Source: Patescibacteria group bacterium (GTDB lineage: Bacteria > Patescibacteriota > Minisyncoccia > UBA6257 > 2-01-FULL-56-20). Taken from it: a stretch of DNA of 64,000 nucleotides. The DNA lies in assembly GCA_028865305.1 (NCBI GenBank), contig JAGWKM010000001.1, forward strand, positions 58,762-122,761, given 5' to 3'. The notes beneath the pieces were generated by a model that saw only the letters and a list, made by a program, of their open reading frames with translations, did not search any database and was not told the DNA's origin. Below are positions 14,160 through 61,251 of this stretch, in pieces (position 1 is the stretch's first letter; each line of letters opens with the position of its first letter). The position numbers and the translations under genes are program-made.

Positions 14160-14300
14160 TGCATTAAATTTTTATTAAATCAACGAGATTAGATTCGACG
14201 ATCGTCGGATCTAATCCTGCATCAATGAACCGATAATTTGATTTAAAAAAAATTTCTTGAAAACTGATCGAAAATTGCAAATTGAAAAAACTGAAGCCTG
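14160..14300. repeat. Composite palindromic element copy 2
   Basis: gattagattcgacgatcgtcggatctaatc (14187-14216) preceded by attaaatttttattaaat. Confidence 0.75.
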
Positions 14301-16673: not shown

Positions 16674-16752
16674 TGGAATTCGGGGGGTGGTGGAAGCTGA
16701 AAAATCCATTCCATTCTCCATTCTCCAGTTTCCAGCTTCCTTTATTACAACA

Positions 16753-19283: not shown

Positions 19284-19367
19284 GCCGAGGTGGCGGAATT
19301 GGCAGACGCACTGGCTTCAGGTGCCAGCGATCGCAAGATCATAAGGGTTCAAATCCCTTCCTCGGCA
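19284..19367 (+). tRNA. tRNA-Leu (CAG)
   Basis: GCCGAGG/CCTCGGC; CTGGC-TTCAGGT-GCCAG anticodon arm; long variable arm. Confidence 0.93.
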
Positions 19368-19388
19368 CTAAAATAAAATAAAAAATGA

Positions 19389-19513
19389 GCCGAGGAAGGG
19401 GTTCGAAGCGCGGAGGGGGCCGGGGAACCGCGGACGGTTCCCTGCCTGCCGGCAGGCAGGTTTCCAAAAAATTTCGTAAAACGAAATTTTGTTCAAATCC
19501 TTTCCTCGGCACT
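19389..19513 (+). mobile_element. tRNA-3'-end-bounded palindromic element (Leu copy)
   Basis: Inverted copy of tRNA-Leu 3' end (GCCGAGGAAGGGGTTCGAA), internal palindromes, direct copy GTTCAAATCCTTTCCTCGGCACT. Confidence 0.65.
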
Positions 19514-19536: not shown

Positions 19537-21462
19537 ATGATTAAAAAATCAGAATCGAAAGAGCTGATGGAAAATTCAGCGCATGGCCTGCACAGCTTCA
19601 GCGGAACAGGCAAAACTACCGCTCCTTCCCGGCCGCGGATACAACCGCCGGCCATTCGGCCGCGCCCCGCGCGCCCCGCGGTTTCTCCGATAAAAACCGG
19701 CGGCCGCCGGCCGGCGCGATCGACGGCTCCCCGCTCGCCGCGGACGGCATCCTTGCCCCGCTTGGTCCGCGAAATGCATCCGGCCCAGGGGAGCGGCGCC
19801 GAGTCGCTTCGTTTCGTACCGCTCGGCGGATTGGAGGAGGTCGGCCGGAACTGCATGTTTCTTGAATACAAAAATGAGATTGTCCTCATCGACGTCGGTT
19901 TGCAGTTTCCTGAAGATGAAACGCCGGGCATTGATTACATCATCCCGAACGTCCAATATCTCGAAAAGAAAAAAGAACATATCGTCGGCATCGTTTTGAC
20001 GCACGGCCACTATGACCACATTGGCGCCTTGCCGCACCTGCTCGACAAGCTCGGCAATCCGCCGATCTACACGACTTCGATCACGAAGGCCATCATTGAA
20101 AAACGGCAGGAGGACTTCCCGAATTCGCCGAAAATGAAAGTGCAGGTCGTGAAAAACGGCGACGAACTCAAGCTGTCGAATTATTTCGACGCGGTTTTCT
20201 TCGGGGTGCCGCATACCATTCCGGAGACGACCGGTGTTCTCATGAAAACACCGATCGGCAACGTGGTGCACTTCGCCGATTTCCGCATCGATTACAACGA
20301 CGAAGGCGAGCCGCAGGGGCTCGAGGAATTTGAACGCATCGGCCGCATGGGCGTGCACAGTTTCATGATTGATAGCACGAATGCCGAGAAGCCGGGGCAC
20401 TCGCTCTCGGAAAAAACCGTCGAAAAGAATCTGGAGGAGATTTTCAAAAAAGCGGAAGGCCGCATCATCGTGGCGACGTTCGCTTCGCTTCTCACCCGCA
20501 TCGCGGAGATCATCAAAATTTGCGAGCGCATCGGGCGGAAAGTCGCGCTTTCCGGCTATTCGATGAAAACGAATATCCAAATCGCGCAGTCGCTCGGATT
20601 CGTTAAGGCCAAAGAAGGCACGATTATCCCGATCGAGGAAGCCGGCAAGATCCGTGACGAAAAACTGCTGATTCTTTCGACGGGAGCGCAGGGAGAGTCG
20701 AATGCGAGCTTGATGAAAATCATCACGGGCGAGCACCGGCATTTGAAGGTGAAGCCCGGCGACACGTTCGTACTTTCATCTTCAGTCATTCCGGGGAACG
20801 AAAAGAGCGTGCAGACGGTGAAAGACAATCTTGCGCGGCAGGGGGCCATCGTCTACCATTCTTCGTTCGTCGACATCCACTCATCCGGCCACGCGCCGAA
20901 GGAGGACCTGAAGCTTGTGATGAAGCTCATCAACCCGAAGTTTTTGGTGCCGGTGCATGGCTATTATTTCATGCGCGCGGCGAACGGCTTGTCGGCACGG
21001 GAAATCGGCATTCCGAAAGAGAACATCATTTTGATGGATAACGGCGAGGTGGCGGAGCTTACGAAAGATTCGTTCAGGGTGACGGGCGAGACGGTGCCGG
21101 CGTTTTACGTGATGGTCGACGGGCTCGGCGTCGGCGACGTTGAGGAGGTAGTGCTCCGCGACCGCCGGACGCTCGCGCAGGAGGGAATGATTGTGATTAT
21201 TCTGACGATTGACCGGAATAAGGGCGGGAAGCTGCTCAAAAATCCGGACATCATTTCGCGCGGATTCATTTACCTGAAAGAGAACCAGCAGATCATTGAT
21301 GAGATGCGGAAGCGGCTGCGCGGCCTGACGGAGCGGCTGCCGAACTACCGCGAGATCGAGCCGGATTACCTGAAGACGCTGATTCGCGACCAGGTTGGGC
21401 AGTTCCTGTACAATAAGACGCGCCGCCGGCCGATGATTTTGCCGGTGATCATCGAGATATAG
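19537..21462 (+). CDS. rnj: ribonuclease J-family protein with Pro/Arg-rich N-terminal extension
   Basis: GGLEEVGRNCMFLEY, LTHGHYDHIGALPHLL, STGAQGESNASLMKI, VPVHGYYFMRAANGLSAREIGIPKENIILMDNG. Confidence 0.92.
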   Translation: MIKKSESKELMENSAHGLHSFSGTGKTTAPSRPRIQPPAIRPRPARPAVSPIKTGGRRPARSTAPRSPRTASLPRLVREMHPAQGSGAESLRFVPLGGLEEVGRNCMFLEYKNEIVLIDVGLQFPEDETPGIDYIIPNVQYLEKKKEHIVGIVLTHGHYDHIGALPHLLDKLGNPPIYTTSITKAIIEKRQEDFPNSPKMKVQVVKNGDELKLSNYFDAVFFGVPHTIPETTGVLMKTPIGNVVHFADFRIDYNDEGEPQGLEEFERIGRMGVHSFMIDSTNAEKPGHSLSEKTVEKNLEEIFKKAEGRIIVATFASLLTRIAEIIKICERIGRKVALSGYSMKTNIQIAQSLGFVKAKEGTIIPIEEAGKIRDEKLLILSTGAQGESNASLMKIITGEHRHLKVKPGDTFVLSSSVIPGNEKSVQTVKDNLARQGAIVYHSSFVDIHSSGHAPKEDLKLVMKLINPKFLVPVHGYYFMRAANGLSAREIGIPKENIILMDNGEVAELTKDSFRVTGETVPAFYVMVDGLGVGDVEEVVLRDRRTLAQEGMIVIILTIDRNKGGKLLKNPDIISRGFIYLKENQQIIDEMRKRLRGLTERLPNYREIEPDYLKTLIRDQVGQFLYNKTRRRPMILPVIIEI

Positions 21463-24099: not shown

Positions 24100-27000
24100 C
24101 TAAATTTTCCTTATCCCAACCCAAACAGGATCGTTTTCCAGCTTTGTTTCCTCCTCGGCGTCGAATTTTTCGGTACGCTTGTATTCAACGAGTCCTGCGC
24201 CGACATCGGATTTCAACGGCAGTTCGTTCTTTTGGACGGTAGCGCGGATCCCGGCTGGCAATTCGAGATAGAGCGCGATTTTGTCTTTCGGCTCGAGGCC
24301 GGCTTTCTGGCGCAACTCTTGGACCATGCGCGCGAGTTCGCGGAGCAATCCTTCTTCATGCAGCTCCGGTGTGATGGTTATATTCAACTTCGAATCGACT
24401 TCCAAAGTTTTATCAAAAGAAACTTTTTTGACATTGATCTCATCGCGGAGGATCACAAGAAATTCTTCCTTGCCTTCCAGCTCCATATTTTTCACCGTGA
24501 ACTCCGAAAGCGGTTGGCGGACCTTAATTTTTGCATCTGCACGCGCCGCCAATCCCAATGCCGCCAGATCTCGCGCTGTTTGCATGTTTTCAAGAATTTC
24601 ATTCCATGCTCCATGCTCCATGCTCCATTCTCCATTCGCAGGCCATTCCTCCAAATGCACCGATTCCTTTGGCCCGCCGAGCGCCGCGTACAATCCTTCT
24701 GCAAAAAACGGCGTGAACGGCGCAAGGAGTTTGGTCAATGAAAGCAAAACAAAATGGAGCGTCGCTGAAGCGTTTTCGTAATCCGTTCTCCGTTCTCCGT
24801 TCTCCATTCTCCATTCTTTTCCCTGCAGCCGTTTCCGCGAACGGCGGATGTACCAGCGGGATAAATCATCGACGAACGAATCGATTTCGATTGCCGCTTC
24901 GCGGATTTCATAGCGGTCCAATTTTTCGGTCATTGAAGCGGTCAATTCAGCCAATCGCGCGGCGATCCATCGGTCGAGGATATTACGAGAGGAGGATGGA
25001 TCGTGGAGGATGGAGGATGGGGCCGCGTAGGTTTTCCAAAAGACGAATGAATTGTAGATGATCAAATGCGTCCGCCGGAGCGCCTTCGCCACTTCCTGCT
25101 CGTCGAAATTTTTCGGTTCGCCGAACGGCGTGCCGGTGTAGAAATACCAGCGCACCGCGTCGGCGCCGAATTTGTCGATGACCGAAAACGGTTCGACGAT
25201 ATTGCCCTTCGATTTCGACATCTTCTGGCCGAACTTATCATTGATCAGGCCGAACGTGATGACGTTCTTATAGGGCGCTTCAAAACCGAGCGCGGTTGCG
25301 ATGGCAAGCAGGGTGTAAAACCAGCCGCGGGTCTGGTCCATTCCTTCGGCGATGTAGTCGGCGGGGTAAGCGTGCGGCGGTTTTGTTCCATCCCATTCTC
25401 TATTCTCCATTCTCCGTTCTCCGCTTCCTCCAAACGGCCAGTGCACTTCCGCAAACGGCATGGCGCCCGAATCATACCAGACATCCGCCACTTCTTTTAC
25501 GCGCCCCATCCGGTTTCCGCATCGCGGGCACGGAAGCGCGATTTCGTCCGCATAAGGCCGGTGCAGGTCCGCCGCTCCGGTTTCGTTCCGTGGGATGATT
25601 TTGAGCGGCAGTTCCCTGATTTCGGCAAAGCCGATGAATTCGCCCGGTTTCGCCCGTTTTTCATCGATGGCCCGTTTTTCACTCCATCCTTCGGCGACCT
25701 GGAAGAACATCCAGATCGGATACTCGTGCGAAACGATCAGAATATTCTTGCCTTCATATTTCGATTCGCAATCCCGGAGGAATTCCCAAATCCGCGACCT
25801 GAGGTCGCGCACCGACTCGCCGCCCTCGGGCCGCTTTTCAAACCGCGATTCGTAGGTCGGATAAAATTCGGCATATTTCTTGTCGGGCAGGCCGGTGAGC
25901 GTCGGGCCGAGATGGATTTCTTCGATGCGTTTGTCGAATGATACTTCCGGCTTGCCGAGCACGGCGTAGTCGATGGTCTCGGTTTCCTTGGTGCGCGTGA
26001 CGTCGGAGGAAATGATGATGTCGATTTTCTCCCCCTTTTTATCGAGTTGGCGCTTGAATTGGGTAATTGATTTCAAAACTTCTTCCTGGCCGCGCGGCGT
26101 GAGATGCAGGTATTTCCGCTGGCCGGAGTCGATGACGTTGAAGATGTTGCTTTCCGCTTCGCCGTGGCGCATGACCCAATAATGGTTTTTGGGCCCGCCG
26201 GCGAGTTCGTTCAATTCGTCCATGCTGCCGACGATCTCATGCCGGCCGCATTTGCCGCACTCCCAGATCGGCAGCGGCGCGCCCCAATACCGTTCGCGCG
26301 ACAGGTTCCAGTCCTTCACTTCGCGCAGCCATTCGCCGAAGCGGCCTTCTTTCACGTGCTGCGGCATCCAGTTGATCGTTTCATTGCGTTTCAATAATTC
26401 GTTCCGCAGCCTGCTCATCGCGATGAACCAGGATGTGCGGGCATAATAAAGGATGGGCGTGCCGCAGCGCCAGCAATACGGATATTCGTGCGCGTATGGT
26501 TCGATGCGGAGCAGGGCGCCGCGTTGCTTCAGGTGTTCGAAAATGCGTTCTTCGGTTTCTTTCGATTTTGCGTATTCGCCGGCGAGCGCCGGAACGTCTT
26601 TCGTGAACTTTCCTTCCTCATCCACGGTGTGGTGCTGCGGCAGGCCGATTTCCTGCCCGAGCCGGTAATCGTCTTCGCCGTACATCACGGCGGTGTGCAC
26701 GACGCCGGTGCCGTCGGTCGTCGTTACGAAATCCGCCGGATAGATTTTGTAAGAAACCGGCGATTTCAATTTTTCTACATCGAAGAGCGGTTCGTATTCG
26801 AGGCCGACCAAATCCGCGCCGGCGAGCTCGTGTGATTTTCCCGCGTTTTCCAGTCCGATGTCTTTCAATCGGCCTGCGGCAGCGATCACATATTCGCCAT
26901 CTTTTTCTATGGCGCGATATTTGACATTCGGGCCGACTGCGAGCGCCACATTGCCGGGTAAAGTCCATGGGGTCGTGGTCCAAGAAAGAATGTAGATGTG

Positions 27001-28070: not shown

Positions 28071-29870
28071 TCAGATCTTTTCCAGCGTTTTGATGCCGAG
28101 GAGGTGCAGGCCGGTTCGGATGGTTTGGGCAGCGGTTTCGGCAAGCTGGAGCCGCGCTGTCCTCCGTTCTCCATTCTCATCTTTTAAGATTGGCGTTGTT
28201 TCGTAGAATTTGTTTGCAATCGAAGCAAGTTTATGGAGGTAGGTCGCCAATGTGCTTGGCGTGAAATTGACGCCGGCGCGCTGGACAATATCCGGAAATT
28301 CCAAAATTTTCCGCATGAGCGAAAGCTCAAGCTGAGAAGTGAGAAATGAGAAGTGAGAAGTGGGAGATTTCCCATTTCCCACCTCCCATTTCCCACCTCC
28401 CATTTCCCACTTTCGCAAAATACTGCGCAATCTTGCGAAAGCGTACTGCAGATACGGGCCGGAATCGCCTTCGAATGAAAGTGATTTTTCGAAATCAAAG
28501 ACGATGTCTTGGCCGGGATTTTGCCGCAGGATGGAATATTTGATGGCACCGATCGCGATGGCCTCGGTTGCCGCCGCGCGCTCTGCCGCATCCAGTTCGC
28601 TTCGTTCGCTTACGAACGCCTGCAATTTTTCTTTTGCCTGTCCGATGAGCGCTTCCGCCGCGATTATGTTTCCTTTGCGCGAAGACATTTTGCCGGATTC
28701 GAACCGCAGCATACCGTGGCCGATGTGCTTGGTCTTGCCGGCGGCTTCGGGCATCAGGAGATCCATCGCCTTCAAAAGCACGCGGAAATAGTCGTTCTGT
28801 TCGTTGCCGGTGATCACGATCGACTGGTCGAAATGGAAATCCTGATATTTTCGGGCAGTGAGGCCGAGCTCTTTCGCCTCATAGGTCGGCACGCCTTTCG
28901 AGTTTACGAATACGCGCGTGTGCAGGCCGTGCGCTTCACCCTTGAAGACGACCGCCCCGTCGCTTTTTTCAAGGATGTTTTCCTTCAGTCCCTTTTCGAC
29001 CGCTTTTAGCCCTTCTTCCGCCACCTCGCTTTCCCAATAGTTCCGGACGAATTTCGTATCGAGCCGCGCAAAAATTTCCTGGAAATGCCTGATGCTGATT
29101 TCGCGGCCCCAGGCATAGAGTTCATTGACTGCCGGGTCGGATTTTTCAAAAACCGTTTTGTTCAGCCCGTCGATTTCCTTTTTTGCTGATTCGTCTTCTT
29201 CATATTTCGTTGAGCCGAAAACGTAAGCATCCGCCCAAAATGCCAATTGCGTCTTAGCATCGGATGTCCGGAGGGCATCTGCCGTCAAGCCCTCCTGCCG
29301 CATTCGTTCGCGCACGCCGAAGATCGCTTTTGCCACATGCAGGCCGACATCGCCGCCGTAGGAAAGCCGCTTTACGTCCGCGCCCTGGGCCTCGATGAGC
29401 CGTGCGATTGATTCGCCGATGGCGTTCGACATCAGATGCCCGATGTGGAACAGCTTGAACGGGTTCGGGTCGGTGAATTCGATGATGACTTTTGAGTCGG
29501 AGAATGGAGAATGGAGATTGGAGAATGAAATTGATTCGGCCATCGGCCATCGGCCATCGGCCATTTTCCAAAATTCCTCGGAAATGGTTTCCTTTCCCAG
29601 CCAAAAGTTAATGAACCCCGGACCGACTGCTTCCACTTTTTCAAAAAATCCAACGGGTGCCGCCTTGGCGATTTCTTCCGCCAGTTTTTTAGCGCGTTCA
29701 ATTGTTTTTTCATTCCATTCTCCATTCTCCATTCTCCATTCTCCTTCTTTCATCCGCATCGCCACATTTGTCGAATAGTGCCCAAAAGTGCTTTCTTCGG
29801 GAACAAAAAGCTCGATGGCGGCATCTGCGCCCAAAACCTTTTTTATGATTTCCAGTATTTTTTCTTTCAT
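28071..29870 (-). CDS. argS: arginyl-tRNA synthetase with several repeat-derived inserts
   Basis: FTDPNPFKLFHIGHLMSNAIGESIARLIEAQG; MLRFESGKMSSRKGN; EGDSGPYLQYAFARLRSIL. Start trimmed to MKEKILEI. Confidence 0.93.
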   Translation of the reverse strand: MKEKILEIIKKVLGADAAIELFVPEESTFGHYSTNVAMRMKEGEWRMENGEWNEKTIERAKKLAEEIAKAAPVGFFEKVEAVGPGFINFWLGKETISEEFWKMADGRWPMAESISFSNLHSPFSDSKVIIEFTDPNPFKLFHIGHLMSNAIGESIARLIEAQGADVKRLSYGGDVGLHVAKAIFGVRERMRQEGLTADALRTSDAKTQLAFWADAYVFGSTKYEEDESAKKEIDGLNKTVFEKSDPAVNELYAWGREISIRHFQEIFARLDTKFVRNYWESEVAEEGLKAVEKGLKENILEKSDGAVVFKGEAHGLHTRVFVNSKGVPTYEAKELGLTARKYQDFHFDQSIVITGNEQNDYFRVLLKAMDLLMPEAAGKTKHIGHGMLRFESGKMSSRKGNIIAAEALIGQAKEKLQAFVSERSELDAAERAAATEAIAIGAIKYSILRQNPGQDIVFDFEKSLSFEGDSGPYLQYAFARLRSILRKWEMGGGKWEVGNGKSPTSHFSFLTSQLELSLMRKILEFPDIVQRAGVNFTPSTLATYLHKLASIANKFYETTPILKDENGERRTARLQLAETAAQTIRTGLHLLGIKTLEKI

Positions 29871-33574: not shown

Positions 33575-33735
33575 GAAGTTTTCAGTTTTCAGTTTTCAGT
33601 CAATGATCCTTCCATATTAAATTTTCATTAAGTAAAAAAGATTATATTCGACGATCGTCGGATATAATCCGCGTCAGTCAAATAGTGTCTCAATTAAAAA
33701 CTGTAAATTGAAAATTGAAACTTAAAAACTATTCC
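33575..33735. repeat. Composite palindromic element copy 3
   Basis: gattatattcgacgatcgtcggatataatc (33640-33669) between ttttcagttttcag and aaactgtaaattgaaaattgaaa arms. Confidence 0.75.
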
Positions 33736-34710: not shown

Positions 34711-35640
34711 ATGTATGACTTAATCATTATCGGCGGTGGGCCGGGCGGTGTGGCTGCTGGGATATATGCCGCGCGGAAGAAAATGAAAACGTTGCTCATC
34801 ACCGACACCTTCGGCGGACAGTCGGTGGTTTCAGCCGACGTGCAGAATTGGATTGGCACGAAGTCGATCTCTGGTTTCGATCTGGCAAAATCGTTAGAGG
34901 AGCACCTGCGCGCCCAACAGGGAATTGAAATCGATGAAAACGATTTGGTAACCGAAATCCAAAAAAAGATTATATCCGACGATCGTCAAATACCATCCTT
35001 TTTGATAAAAACAAAAAAAGGAAAGGAGTTCGAGACAAAGCATGTCCTGCTTGCCTCCGGCAGCCGGCACAAAAAACTTGACGTGCCCGGTGAAAAAGAA
35101 CTGGACGGCAAGGGCGTGGTTTATTGCTCCATTTGCGATGCGCCGCTTTTTGAAGGGAAGACCGTGGCGGTTGTCGGCGGCGGGAACTCGGCGCTCGAAG
35201 CCGTTTTGGATGCGATTCCTTATGCTTCAAAAATTTATGTGTTGGTCCGTTCGGCGCTGAAGGGCGATCCGGTGACGCAGGACAAGGTGAAGGCGCATCC
35301 GAACGTGGAAATAATCCTGGGAGCGACGCCCGAAGAAATCATCGGGAAAGATACGGTTACTGGGATCCGTTATCTTGCGAACGGCGAGTCGAAAACATTG
35401 AATGTGGATGGCGTATTCGTGGAGATCGGCCAGGCGCCGAATTCGGATTTTGTGAAAGATTTGGTCAAACTGGATGATTACGGCCACGTTGCGGTCGACC
35501 ATAAAACCCAGCAAACTTCCTGTCCGGGCATTTGGGCGGCCGGCGACATAACCGACCAGCCGTATCGGCAGAACAATATTTCGGTGGGCGATGCCGTGAA
35601 GGCAACGCTCAATATTTACGATCGGGTGAAGATGCAATAA
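34711..35640 (+). CDS. thioredoxin reductase-like flavoprotein
   Basis: IIIGGGPGGVAAGIYAARK, YCSICDAPLFEGKTVAVVGGGNSALEA, GIWAAGDITDQPYRQ. Confidence 0.88.
   Translation: MYDLIIIGGGPGGVAAGIYAARKKMKTLLITDTFGGQSVVSADVQNWIGTKSISGFDLAKSLEEHLRAQQGIEIDENDLVTEIQKKIISDDRQIPSFLIKTKKGKEFETKHVLLASGSRHKKLDVPGEKELDGKGVVYCSICDAPLFEGKTVAVVGGGNSALEAVLDAIPYASKIYVLVRSALKGDPVTQDKVKAHPNVEIILGATPEEIIGKDTVTGIRYLANGESKTLNVDGVFVEIGQAPNSDFVKDLVKLDDYGHVAVDHKTQQTSCPGIWAAGDITDQPYRQNNISVGDAVKATLNIYDRVKMQ
34968..34987 (+). repeat. Half-copy of the palindromic element inside trxR coding sequence
   Basis: gattatatccgacgatcgtc vs gattatattcgacgatcgtc at 33640 (one mismatch), both preceded by an A-run. Confidence 0.65.
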
Positions 35641-55410: not shown

Positions 55411-55549
55411 TTTTCGTCGGGCCGCCGGGAATGGAACAAAAATTTCCTTCGGAAATTTTTCTGGAAACCCACGGTTTCCAGTGCCTTCCTACACGGAAGG
55501 GGCAACCTGCCCCTTCCGACCTATCCCCTCGTTCGATTCCCGTCGATCC
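55411..55549 (-). mobile_element. tRNA-3'-end-bounded palindromic element (Pro copy)
   Basis: Inverted GGATCGACGGGAATCGAAC, internal palindromes, direct copy GTTCCATTCCCGGCGGCCCGACGAAAA of tRNA-Pro 3' end plus flank. Confidence 0.65.
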
Positions 55550-55564
55550 TCCTTAAATGAAAAA

Positions 55565-55590
55565 CGACCGAACGGTCGTTTTTCATTTTC
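55565..55590. terminator. Terminator hairpin after tRNA-Pro
   Basis: aaaacgaccgaacggtcgtttttc. Confidence 0.75.
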
Positions 55591-55591
55591 G

Positions 55592-55662
55592 TCGGGCCGC
55601 CGGGAATCGAACCCGGGCCTTACGCACCCCATGCGCAAATACTGCCATTATACGACGGCCCG
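55592..55662 (-). tRNA. tRNA-Pro (GGG)
   Basis: CGGGCCG/CGGCCCG; TGCGC-ATGGGGT-GCGTA; CCGGG-TTCGATT-CCCGG. Confidence 0.92.
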
Positions 55663-59049: not shown

Positions 59050-61251
59050 CTACCACTTCTCTACCATCAACATCTTGCTGGGCTTGAAGATGCCGTAAAT
59101 TTCCTCGGTCACGAATGGCATGAACGGATGGAGCATCTTCAGGGATTCGAGCAGAAGGTGTTCCAAAATCGCAAAGCTCGCTTGTTTTTCTTCCTCGGTG
59201 CCGTTGCGGAGCTTCTCTTTTTCCGCTTCGATGATTTTGTCCGCCAGCGTGTGCCAGATATAGTGATATAGTTTTTCCGCTGCGAGGTGGAATTCGAAAT
59301 TTTCGATATGTTCCGTAATTTTGGTTTTCAAACTATTCAGTTCGTCCAGGTAGGTTTGGAAGTCAGAAGTTGGAAGTTGGAAGTTGGGATTATTCCATTC
59401 TCCATTCTCCATTCTCCATTCTCCTTTGTTCATTTCGATAAACCTTGCGATATTCCAAATCTTCGTCGAAAAATTCCGGTAGCCGCGGATGCGGTCTTCG
59501 GATAATTTGATGTCGTTTCCCGCCGAAGCGCCGATCACGAGCGACAGCCGTGTCGCGTCTGCGCCGTATTTGTCGGCCATTTCAAGCGGGTCGATGCCGT
59601 TGCCGAGCGATTTCGACATTTTGCGCCCTATTTCATCGCGCACGAGACCGTGGAGATATACTTTGCGAAAGGGGACTTCGTCCATTAAAACCGCGGACAT
59701 CAGGATCATCCGCGCGACCCAGAAGAACAGGATGTCGTAGCCGGTTTCGAGCACCGAGTTCGGGAAATACGTTTTTAAGTCGGGCGTTTCATCGGGCCAG
59801 CCGAGCGTCGAAAACGGCCACAGCCCCGAAGAGAACCAGGTATCGAGCGTGTCCGGATCCTGCTCCCATCCGTCTCCTTCCGGCGGTTCAATGCCAACGT
59901 AAAGTTCTTCTCCATTCTCCATTCTCCCTTCTCCGTCCTTCTTTTTCTTATACCAGACGGGAATCCGGTGTCCGAACCAGATCTGCCGCGAGATGCACCA
60001 GTCGCGGAGGTTGTCGATCCAATGGAAATAAATTTTTTCGAACCGCTCCGGAAGGATTTTGATCCGGCCGCTTTCGACCGCCTCGCGCATCAATTCTTTG
60101 AGCGTCCTTGCCTCTTGTCCCTTGCCCCATGTTCCATTAAATTTCTTCTCCACCGCCACGAACCATTGCTTCAAAATCTGCGGTTCGATAACGCCTCCGC
60201 CGCGGCTGTCGGTCGCGATGCGGTGCGTATATTTTTCATCAATTTTTTCAATCAGGCCTTTTGATTGTAGTTTTTCTACGATGAGCGGCCGCGCTTTTTT
60301 GATGTGCTGTCCGGCAAATTCGCCGGCGATTGGCAGCAGCTTGCCTTGCAGATCGATGACCTGTTCCATGTCGAGTTTGTGCCGCAGGGCGATATCGAAG
60401 TCAACCATGTCGTGCCAGGGCGTTATTGTCATCACGCCGGTGCCGAAGGCCATGTCGATGGCCGAATCTTTCAAGATCGTCGCCGTGACCGGGCCGTTGA
60501 TCCATTCGAGTTCTATTTTTTCGCCGTGTTTATATTTTCCATACCGCTTGTCGTCCGGATGCATCACGACGTATTTGTCGCCGAATTTCGTTTCCGGGCG
60601 TGCGGTCGCGATCACGAAGGGGCCGTATTTCAGGTAATAGAGCGGCACGGTTTCTTCGATCCATTCGATTTCGTCGTCCGAAACCGTGGTGCCGAGTTCA
60701 GGATCCCAGTTTACGATGCGGTTGCCGCGGTAGATCAGGCCGCGATCGTACATTTTTTTGAACGCGGTGCGGACGGCGACTTCGCGCGCGGCGTCCAGCG
60801 TGTAGGTCTCGCGGCTCCAGTCGAGCGAAGAGCCCATCCGCTTCACCTGTTTCACGATGGTGTCATGGCTCTTTGCGGCGAATTCATTCACGCGGCGCAA
60901 AAATTCCTCGCGGCCGAGGTCGTGGCGGCGTTTTTTCTCCTCTTTGTAAATCAGTTTTTCCACTTTTGACTGCGTTGCGATCGCGGCGTGGTCCGTGCCG
61001 GGTATCCACAGGGTTTTTTTGCCACGCATCCGTTCGTAGCGCACCATAATGTCTTCAATGACGAGCATCGCCGCGTGGCCCATGTGCAGTTCGCCCGTCA
61101 CGTTCGGCGGGGGAAGCACGATTGAAAACGGTTCCGCATCTTTCGCCGTCACACCTTTTTCGACGCAAACATCAGGGTTGAAAAATCCCGAATCTTCCCA
61201 CTTCTTATAAATCCGCGCCTCAACCTCTTTAATATCATATCTCGGTTCCAT
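59050..61251 (-). CDS. valS: valyl-tRNA synthetase with repeat-derived inserts
   Basis: PPPNVTGELHMGHAAMLVIEDIMVRYERMRG; GRKMSKSLGNGIDPLEM; GTDHAAIATQSKVEK. Confidence 0.95.
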   Translation of the reverse strand: MEPRYDIKEVEARIYKKWEDSGFFNPDVCVEKGVTAKDAEPFSIVLPPPNVTGELHMGHAAMLVIEDIMVRYERMRGKKTLWIPGTDHAAIATQSKVEKLIYKEEKKRRHDLGREEFLRRVNEFAAKSHDTIVKQVKRMGSSLDWSRETYTLDAAREVAVRTAFKKMYDRGLIYRGNRIVNWDPELGTTVSDDEIEWIEETVPLYYLKYGPFVIATARPETKFGDKYVVMHPDDKRYGKYKHGEKIELEWINGPVTATILKDSAIDMAFGTGVMTITPWHDMVDFDIALRHKLDMEQVIDLQGKLLPIAGEFAGQHIKKARPLIVEKLQSKGLIEKIDEKYTHRIATDSRGGGVIEPQILKQWFVAVEKKFNGTWGKGQEARTLKELMREAVESGRIKILPERFEKIYFHWIDNLRDWCISRQIWFGHRIPVWYKKKKDGEGRMENGEELYVGIEPPEGDGWEQDPDTLDTWFSSGLWPFSTLGWPDETPDLKTYFPNSVLETGYDILFFWVARMILMSAVLMDEVPFRKVYLHGLVRDEIGRKMSKSLGNGIDPLEMADKYGADATRLSLVIGASAGNDIKLSEDRIRGYRNFSTKIWNIARFIEMNKGEWRMENGEWNNPNFQLPTSDFQTYLDELNSLKTKITEHIENFEFHLAAEKLYHYIWHTLADKIIEAEKEKLRNGTEEEKQASFAILEHLLLESLKMLHPFMPFVTEEIYGIFKPSKMLMVEKW

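Follow-up and report, generated by a model that had tools for sequence, protein, structure and literature searches.

A family of gene-less hairpin units flanked by copies of the adjacent gene end at tRNA genes in Patescibacteria

Two tRNA-linked units in the window

The window is a stretch of 64,000 nt from a Patescibacteria genome. In it, tRNA-Leu(CAG) and tRNA-Pro(GGG) are each followed by a unit with the same order of parts: the tRNA 3′ end (R), a trailer or terminator hairpin (P), the gene end again in inverted orientation (r), a hairpin core without genes and a direct copy of the gene end (R′). The features of the two units were as follows.

19284..19368, + strand: host gene tRNA-Leu(CAG), from ARAGORN; its last ~22 nt are R
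19347..19369, + strand: R, first copy, from the T-loop to the tRNA 3′ end, GTTCAAATCCCTTCCTCGGCACT (direct reading; direct repeat family D12)
19370..19388, + strand: P, A/T-rich trailer between tRNA-Leu and the element (direct reading)
19389..19407, + strand: r, inverted copy of the tRNA-Leu 3′ end, GCCGAGGAAGGGGTTCGAA, pairing with R′ in the single-stranded DNA fold
19408..19490 (about), + strand: ORF-free hairpin core, the conserved core of the family (covariance model R1 and fold)
19421..19443, + strand: H1 of the core, GGGGAACC gcggac GGTTCCC (direct reading and fold)
19442..19459, + strand: nested secondary palindrome CTGCCTGCCGGCAGGCAG, in place of the conserved linker and the 5′ arm of H2 (own-genome comparison)
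19468..19490, + strand: H3 hairpin, AAAATTTCGTAAAACGAAATTTT (direct reading and fold)
19491..19513, + strand: R′, direct copy of the tRNA-Leu 3′ end, starting at the T-loop (direct repeat family D12)
55591..55662, − strand: host gene tRNA-Pro(GGG), from ARAGORN
55555..55590, − strand: P, terminator-like hairpin after tRNA-Pro (reading and fold)
55531..55549, − strand: r of the tRNA-Pro element, GGATCGACGGGAATCGAAC on the minus strand (reading and fold)
55456..55528, − strand: core of the tRNA-Pro element, comprising G-rich segment, H1, linker and H2 (model R1, 59 bits)
55438..55460, − strand: H3 hairpin of the tRNA-Pro element (reading and fold)
55415..55437, − strand: R′ of the tRNA-Pro element, GTTCCATTCCCGGCGGCCCGACG (reading and flank comparison)

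A previous reading of the letters alone (the sequence-only reading) had described tRNA-Leu as followed by an inverted copy, palindromes and a direct copy of its own 3′ end, and direct reading bore this out. The r of the Leu unit matched the tRNA at 17 of 19 positions, and R′ differed from R by one mismatch in 23. Model R1 matched positions 19411–19472 of the core with 40.6 bits, and the segment 19386–19513 folded as single-stranded DNA with a z of −6.2, none of 200 shuffles being equally stable. In most other copies P is a terminator-like hairpin, whereas in the Leu copy it is the A/T-rich trailer. The palindromes had been taken as parts of the element; this stood for the hairpin core but not for CTGCCTGCCGGCAGGCAG, a separate small repeat found elsewhere in the genome, which is inserted into, or replaces parts of, some units. 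Since it has displaced the conserved linker and one hairpin arm, the Leu copy in the window is a damaged member of the family. Recurrence of the architecture at tRNA-Pro was confirmed, with the element running from the tRNA (55662–55591, − strand) to ~55415.

The gene directly downstream of the Leu unit encodes ribonuclease J (19537–21462; Pfam RNase_J_b_CASP and RNase_J_C). Other repeats were also seen in the window. The palindrome GATTAGATTCGACGATCGTCGAATCTAATCC is present in four copies (2250–2286, 14181–14217, 33634–33670 and 34962–34998), three with common flanks (families D3, D6 and D9), and heptamer arrays of TCTCCAT or TTCTCCA (D1 and D2) are scattered in the manner of a dispersed minisatellite (16708–16749, 24601–24835, 29712–29767 and 59392–59433).

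Copies in the rest of the genome

Complete units follow at least nine of the ~50 distinct tRNA genes of the genome, both window units included. When the Leu unit was compared with its own genome by blastn, relatives were found at tRNA-Leu(CAA), Arg(CCT), Glu(CTC), Gln(TTG) and Asp(GTC), and a survey of all tRNA genes added units at Thr(CGT) and Gly(GCC). In the Gly(GCC) copy, which we read as circularly permuted, H1 closes the structure. Solo or decayed copies are also present (L004, L006, L009, L036 and L080). The common fold consists of an outer stem r:R′, a G-rich segment, H1, the linker GTGTAGGAAGGC, H2 and H3. The sequence-only reading had proposed looking for the same architecture at other tRNA genes and for a shared profile of the interiors. 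Seven further tRNA genes of the genome do carry a complete unit, with many more in relatives, rather than the absence that would have told against it, and the elements share a conserved, covarying core. Its descriptions of the direct copy as att-like and of the interior as free of ORFs likewise hold in the window and recur across the genome and the phylum.

Some loci depart from this plan. The palindrome CCTGCCTGCCGGCAGGCAGG is a nested insert in hairpin loops of units (window 19442–19459; L006, L057, L137 and L336); in L336 a decayed tRNA-Arg pseudogene has it in its anticodon loop and a hairpin in its T-loop as well. After each of tRNA-Lys(TTT), tRNA-Lys(CTT) and tRNA-Val(CAC) (L029, L033 and L034) there is a loose direct fragment of the tRNA 3′ end with neither core nor inverted copy. 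Contigs C18 and C158 share one flank and carry different units beside it (L080 and L009). The genome assembly (G000) is 1.99 Mb with 8% contamination, most relatives being 0.5–1.2 Mb, and the bin may mix strains or species.

Distribution across Patescibacteria

The covariance model R1 of the core was built on four well-aligned copies. At E <= 1e-4 it matched 66 of 151 related genomes, with up to 12 matches per genome, and its matches were sparse (26 of 380) in genomes drawn across the phylum, other classes included. At least 118 stretches were matched when one genome of each species was scanned by pattern; among the 80 matches listed, nearly all were from Patescibacteria/Parcubacteria or from MAG bacteria, and the single Angelobacter match (L237) is taken for chance. 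The core pattern was not found in IMG/VR apart from one chance match in a coding-like stretch (L194). In an Rfam scan of the family loci, tRNA alone was above threshold. No paper on the Patescibacteria family was found in the literature searched, whose reach left out most subscription journals. The hairpin family that copies tRNA tails in Patescibacteria is large and apparently undescribed.

At a few tRNA genes with an r but without the standard core, a second core type was found, GAGAGTACTTAG...ACTTAGTAACTC and also GAGAGTACTTAG...ACTTAGTAACTCGTG (L199, L209, L236 and L248), which extends the architecture beyond the standard core. These loci follow the same plan of tRNA, inverted copy and direct copy, mostly at Gly, Gln and Phe-like tRNAs, and L287 and L297 do so in part.

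Structure of the core

The elements are gene-less and about 110–150 nt in size, and their conserved part is the G-rich segment with H1, H2 and H3. In the core alignment 95.1% of cells were paired, compared with 75.4% in shuffles, and 18 of 19 pairs had changed on both sides, all slid controls being far lower. The covariation score was 0.50 vs 0.17 and double-change cells numbered 359 vs 100 expected; because the structure guided the alignment, the covariation figures lean its way, but the double-change count is still large. The core is under structural constraint and its hairpins strongly covary. Low wobble (1.3%, vs 4.0% in tRNA stems) was rejected as proof of pairing at the DNA level, the share of one-sided changes being the same as in tRNA.

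On the tRNA strand, GNRA loops made up 26 of 68 tetraloops in H1 and 12 of 55 in H2, a total of 38 vs 1 on the other strand. This bias suggests that the tRNA strand is the likelier functional single strand, whether RNA or single-stranded DNA. The loops and the compensatory changes would also suit a cis-acting structured RNA of the tRNA precursor, in which r would pair with R and so prevent the tRNA from folding, or with R′ and so release it, and the core would be a sensor or processing signal; the E. coli counterpart of the units, RtT, is moreover listed in Rfam as an RNA. We nevertheless regard such a role as improbable, because P, lying between the tRNA and r, is usually terminator-like, units also occur in antisense at the 5′ ends of lepA, typA and rplK, and the cores do not cluster by target.

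Targets and copied gene ends

Nearly all amino acids are represented among the tRNA targets, 72 of 101 copies lying directly downstream of an ARAGORN tRNA on the same strand. For 65 of these 72, R′ matched its own tRNA best or equally well (55 unique, 10 tied), with mean matches of 15.2/17 to its own tRNA vs 9.9/17 to other tRNAs. R′ starts at the T-loop (G53 or 57–61) and ends 0–55 nt beyond the tRNA, with a variable tail; it was found within 260 nt of the core for 48 of 60 tRNA-linked cores. In some copies the whole direct repeat R-P-r is kept on both sides (73 nt in L103, 62 nt in L109 and 87 nt in L131, at lepA).

The identified targets other than tRNA genes are edges of conserved genes, named from the ends of the encoded peptides rather than by family search. 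They comprise the 3′ end of rpsI (five genomes), both the 3′ and 5′ ends of rplK and the 3′ end of pgk; at lepA and typA the units lie at the 5′ ends and face outward. In G137 (L146) there is one unit at each end of rplK, the two in opposite orientations and both facing outward. One solo unit (L121) lies away from any tRNA and has a short CGGAGC repeat at its secondary site.

An r with a match score >=10 was found at 74% of tRNAs with a core, 13% of those without and 1.4% of the null. It is an inverted copy of the resident R rather than of R′, by 231 vs 19 informative positions, a count that includes bases in the core-derived left extension of R′. A tRNA-primed PBS reading of r was dropped, as r is without the CCA complement. 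Where the target is a coding sequence, codon differences between R and R′ were almost wholly synonymous (synonymous to non-synonymous 13:0 at pgk, 9:0 at typA and 5:1 at rplK). A freely decaying local copy would not diverge at synonymous sites only, so at these three genes either one copy comes from another lineage or both are constrained. For pgk, the relatives compared were too distant to show which of the two copies is the native one, and the tRNA ends barely differ between copies, leaving too few differences for a native/foreign comparison on tRNA stems.

This divergence is the main support for a site-specific integrative unit, in which a small circle (R-P-r-core) with its own copy of the gene end would recombine with the chromosomal gene end. 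On this view R would have arrived with the circle and R′ would be the original gene end pushed aside, as happens with classical tRNA-integrating islands; r and R′ might together fold into a single-stranded attachment site of the kind used by integrons or CTX phage. The match of r to R over R′, the conserved-gene targets typical of integrases and the CGGAGC repeat at the secondary site of L121 point the same way. Against it, identical cores at different tRNAs with local R′, described below, would call for retargeting, copy number is not tracked by any dedicated tyrosine recombinase, and no version with cargo was found; integration of this kind is judged unlikely.

Spread within genomes

The nearest neighbour of a core was in the same genome for 34 of 80 cores, vs 4.7 expected (maximum 13 in 1000 permutations), and at the same target for one of 53, vs 1.1 expected. 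In G193 a 90-nt core was identical (90/90) at tRNA-Arg(CCT) and tRNA-Glu(TTC) and matched at 88/90 at tRNA-His, and behind each of the three cores the end of the local tRNA is repeated exactly. The same core has thus gained new target-specific flanks. Units of 163 and 193 nt stand in tandem at the Arg and Glu genes of this genome. Near-identical cores move among the tRNA genes of one genome and gain a local r and R′, as shown for G193 and supported statistically elsewhere. An exception is rpsI, where the cores of G001 and G137, which belong to different families, are nearly identical over ~50 nt, indicating some target-specific inheritance. Some of the clustering within genomes could also arise by gene conversion among copies already present. 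A clean empty site with flanks to match was not obtained, and the comparison of the tRNA-Gln locus between G003 and G024 is no more than suggestive.

The G193 cores also bear on whether the units are mobile at all. Hairpin-driven template switching at terminators might repeatedly make copies of gene ends in direct-inverted-direct order as a by-product. That order is typical of the process, and nested palindromes and perfected arms are common in these units. A specific, conserved and covarying core across the phylum would be unexpected for a mutational by-product, though, and G193 indicates that the same core was newly inserted at several loci in one lineage, which leaves template switching a very improbable source.

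Associated enzymes and cargo

None of the enzymes considered as a partner (tyrosine recombinase, Y1 transposase, reverse transcriptase, serine recombinase or Cas1) tracks the element. Almost every genome has one tyrosine recombinase whatever its number of elements, presumably the chromosomal Xer, and no dedicated one tracking copy number was found among the genomes surveyed. A Y1 (RAYT-type) transposase was present in 35 of 151 genomes; G001 and G002, with 12 and 11 cores, were among those without one. Reverse transcriptase was found in 10 of 14 carrier genomes (absent in G001, G007, G104 and G137) and serine recombinase in 8 of 14; Cas1 was found in 0 of 16, with control genomes positive. In G104, with four copies, no tyrosine or serine recombinase and no reverse transcriptase was detected. 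A gene-carrying version, with R′ far from the core, was not found in the 20-kb stretches or 8-kb loci.

Interpretation of the units

The unit is probably one copy of a non-autonomous mobile hairpin element that copies the end of its target on insertion. The resident gene is left intact; on its right the element passes, at the T-loop, into a new copy of the gene's own 3′ end, and its left end, behind the resident terminator, bears that gene end in inverted form. Such an element would insert just outside the end of a tRNA gene or, occasionally, of another highly conserved gene. Its mobile form may be a folded single strand, either DNA or RNA copied to DNA, that a host function or trans-acting enzyme would recognize by shape. 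One strand end would anneal to a T-loop-like target, and synthesis into the gene end would make R′. The other end would be joined downstream, and fold-back copying at the terminator hairpin would generate or maintain r.

Support for a mobile hairpin element comes from the covariation of the core, the target-specific R′ with its T-loop start and variable tail, the closeness of R′ to the core, the association of r with the core, the clustering within genomes, the G193 copies, the lack of a gene-carrying version and the solo unit L121. It is weakened by the almost wholly synonymous differences that separate R from R′ at pgk, typA and rplK, by the lack of an enzyme and of a clean empty site, and by possible gene conversion. 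The observations describe a phylum-wide repeat family that grows beside tRNA genes in streamlined genomes without breaking them and with no obvious transposase. If mobility by a host function is true, selfish DNA would have a new means of living safely in an essential gene, by copying that gene's own end.

Comparison with known systems

MITEs are short non-autonomous inserts with target duplication and constant terminal inverted repeats. The Patescibacteria units are likewise short, non-autonomous and associated with target duplication, but their end repeats are copied from the target and site-specific beyond T-loop-like bases, with no constant terminal inverted repeats; the duplication is variable (about 15–90 nt), and no parent transposon was found. 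With integrating islands in tRNA genes and integron attC cassettes the units share the direct copy of the tRNA 3′ end and a folded site bounded by inverted copies. As in an island, a direct repeat restores or duplicates the gene end, but no integrase and cargo lie between the repeats, the units have no dedicated integrase, and their core is not target-specific. Reverse transcriptase, expected in all carriers of a retron or other RT-borne element, was found in 10 of 14.

Casposons duplicate their target and insert beside conserved genes and the 3′ ends of tRNA genes (PMC4046053). The units share these sites and the duplication but have no genes, and their 16 carriers no Cas1. REP sequences and REPINs with RAYT transposases are short, gene-less, palindromic and intergenic, and show spread within genomes, compensatory changes and a presumed folded single strand (PMC3116915, PMC2817692). 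All of these properties are found in the Patescibacteria units, which differ in having target-derived flanks; the Y1/RAYT-type transposase is also missing from several genomes with high copy numbers (G001 and G002).

The RtT repeats of E. coli tyrT are the closest known thing to the Patescibacteria units. The sequence-only reading knew of no described element with exactly this structure, which holds for Rfam and the literature searched, although RtT is an architectural precedent. In MG1655, tyrV is followed by a trailer, an inverted copy GCGGGGAAGGAT (10–12 nt), hairpins and lastly 19 nt that repeat the tRNA-Tyr 3′ end exactly, in direct orientation and starting near the T-loop. The RtT unit occurs three times in tandem, and its 178-nt spacing resembles the 163-nt arrays of G193. 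As in the Patescibacteria units, the tRNA is followed by a direct copy of its own 3′ end. The sequences are unrelated in either direction: RF00391 gave four matches at the MG1655 tyrT locus (L409) and none at the Patescibacteria loci, and R1 scored only 4.7 bits on the RtT locus. In the MG1655 stretch read, RtT is at tyrosine tRNAs only, whereas the Patescibacteria units are at nearly every tRNA type and some protein genes. More tentatively, the units may belong to a general, unrecognized class of gene-less mobile DNA in which both flanks would be rebuilt from the target at each insertion; a host function that acts on folded single strands would spread it, and RtT would be a second, independent branch. 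The family ties the so far unexplained RtT repeats of tyrT to a broader pattern and makes the nature of such repeats, as RNAs, mobile DNA or both, testable.
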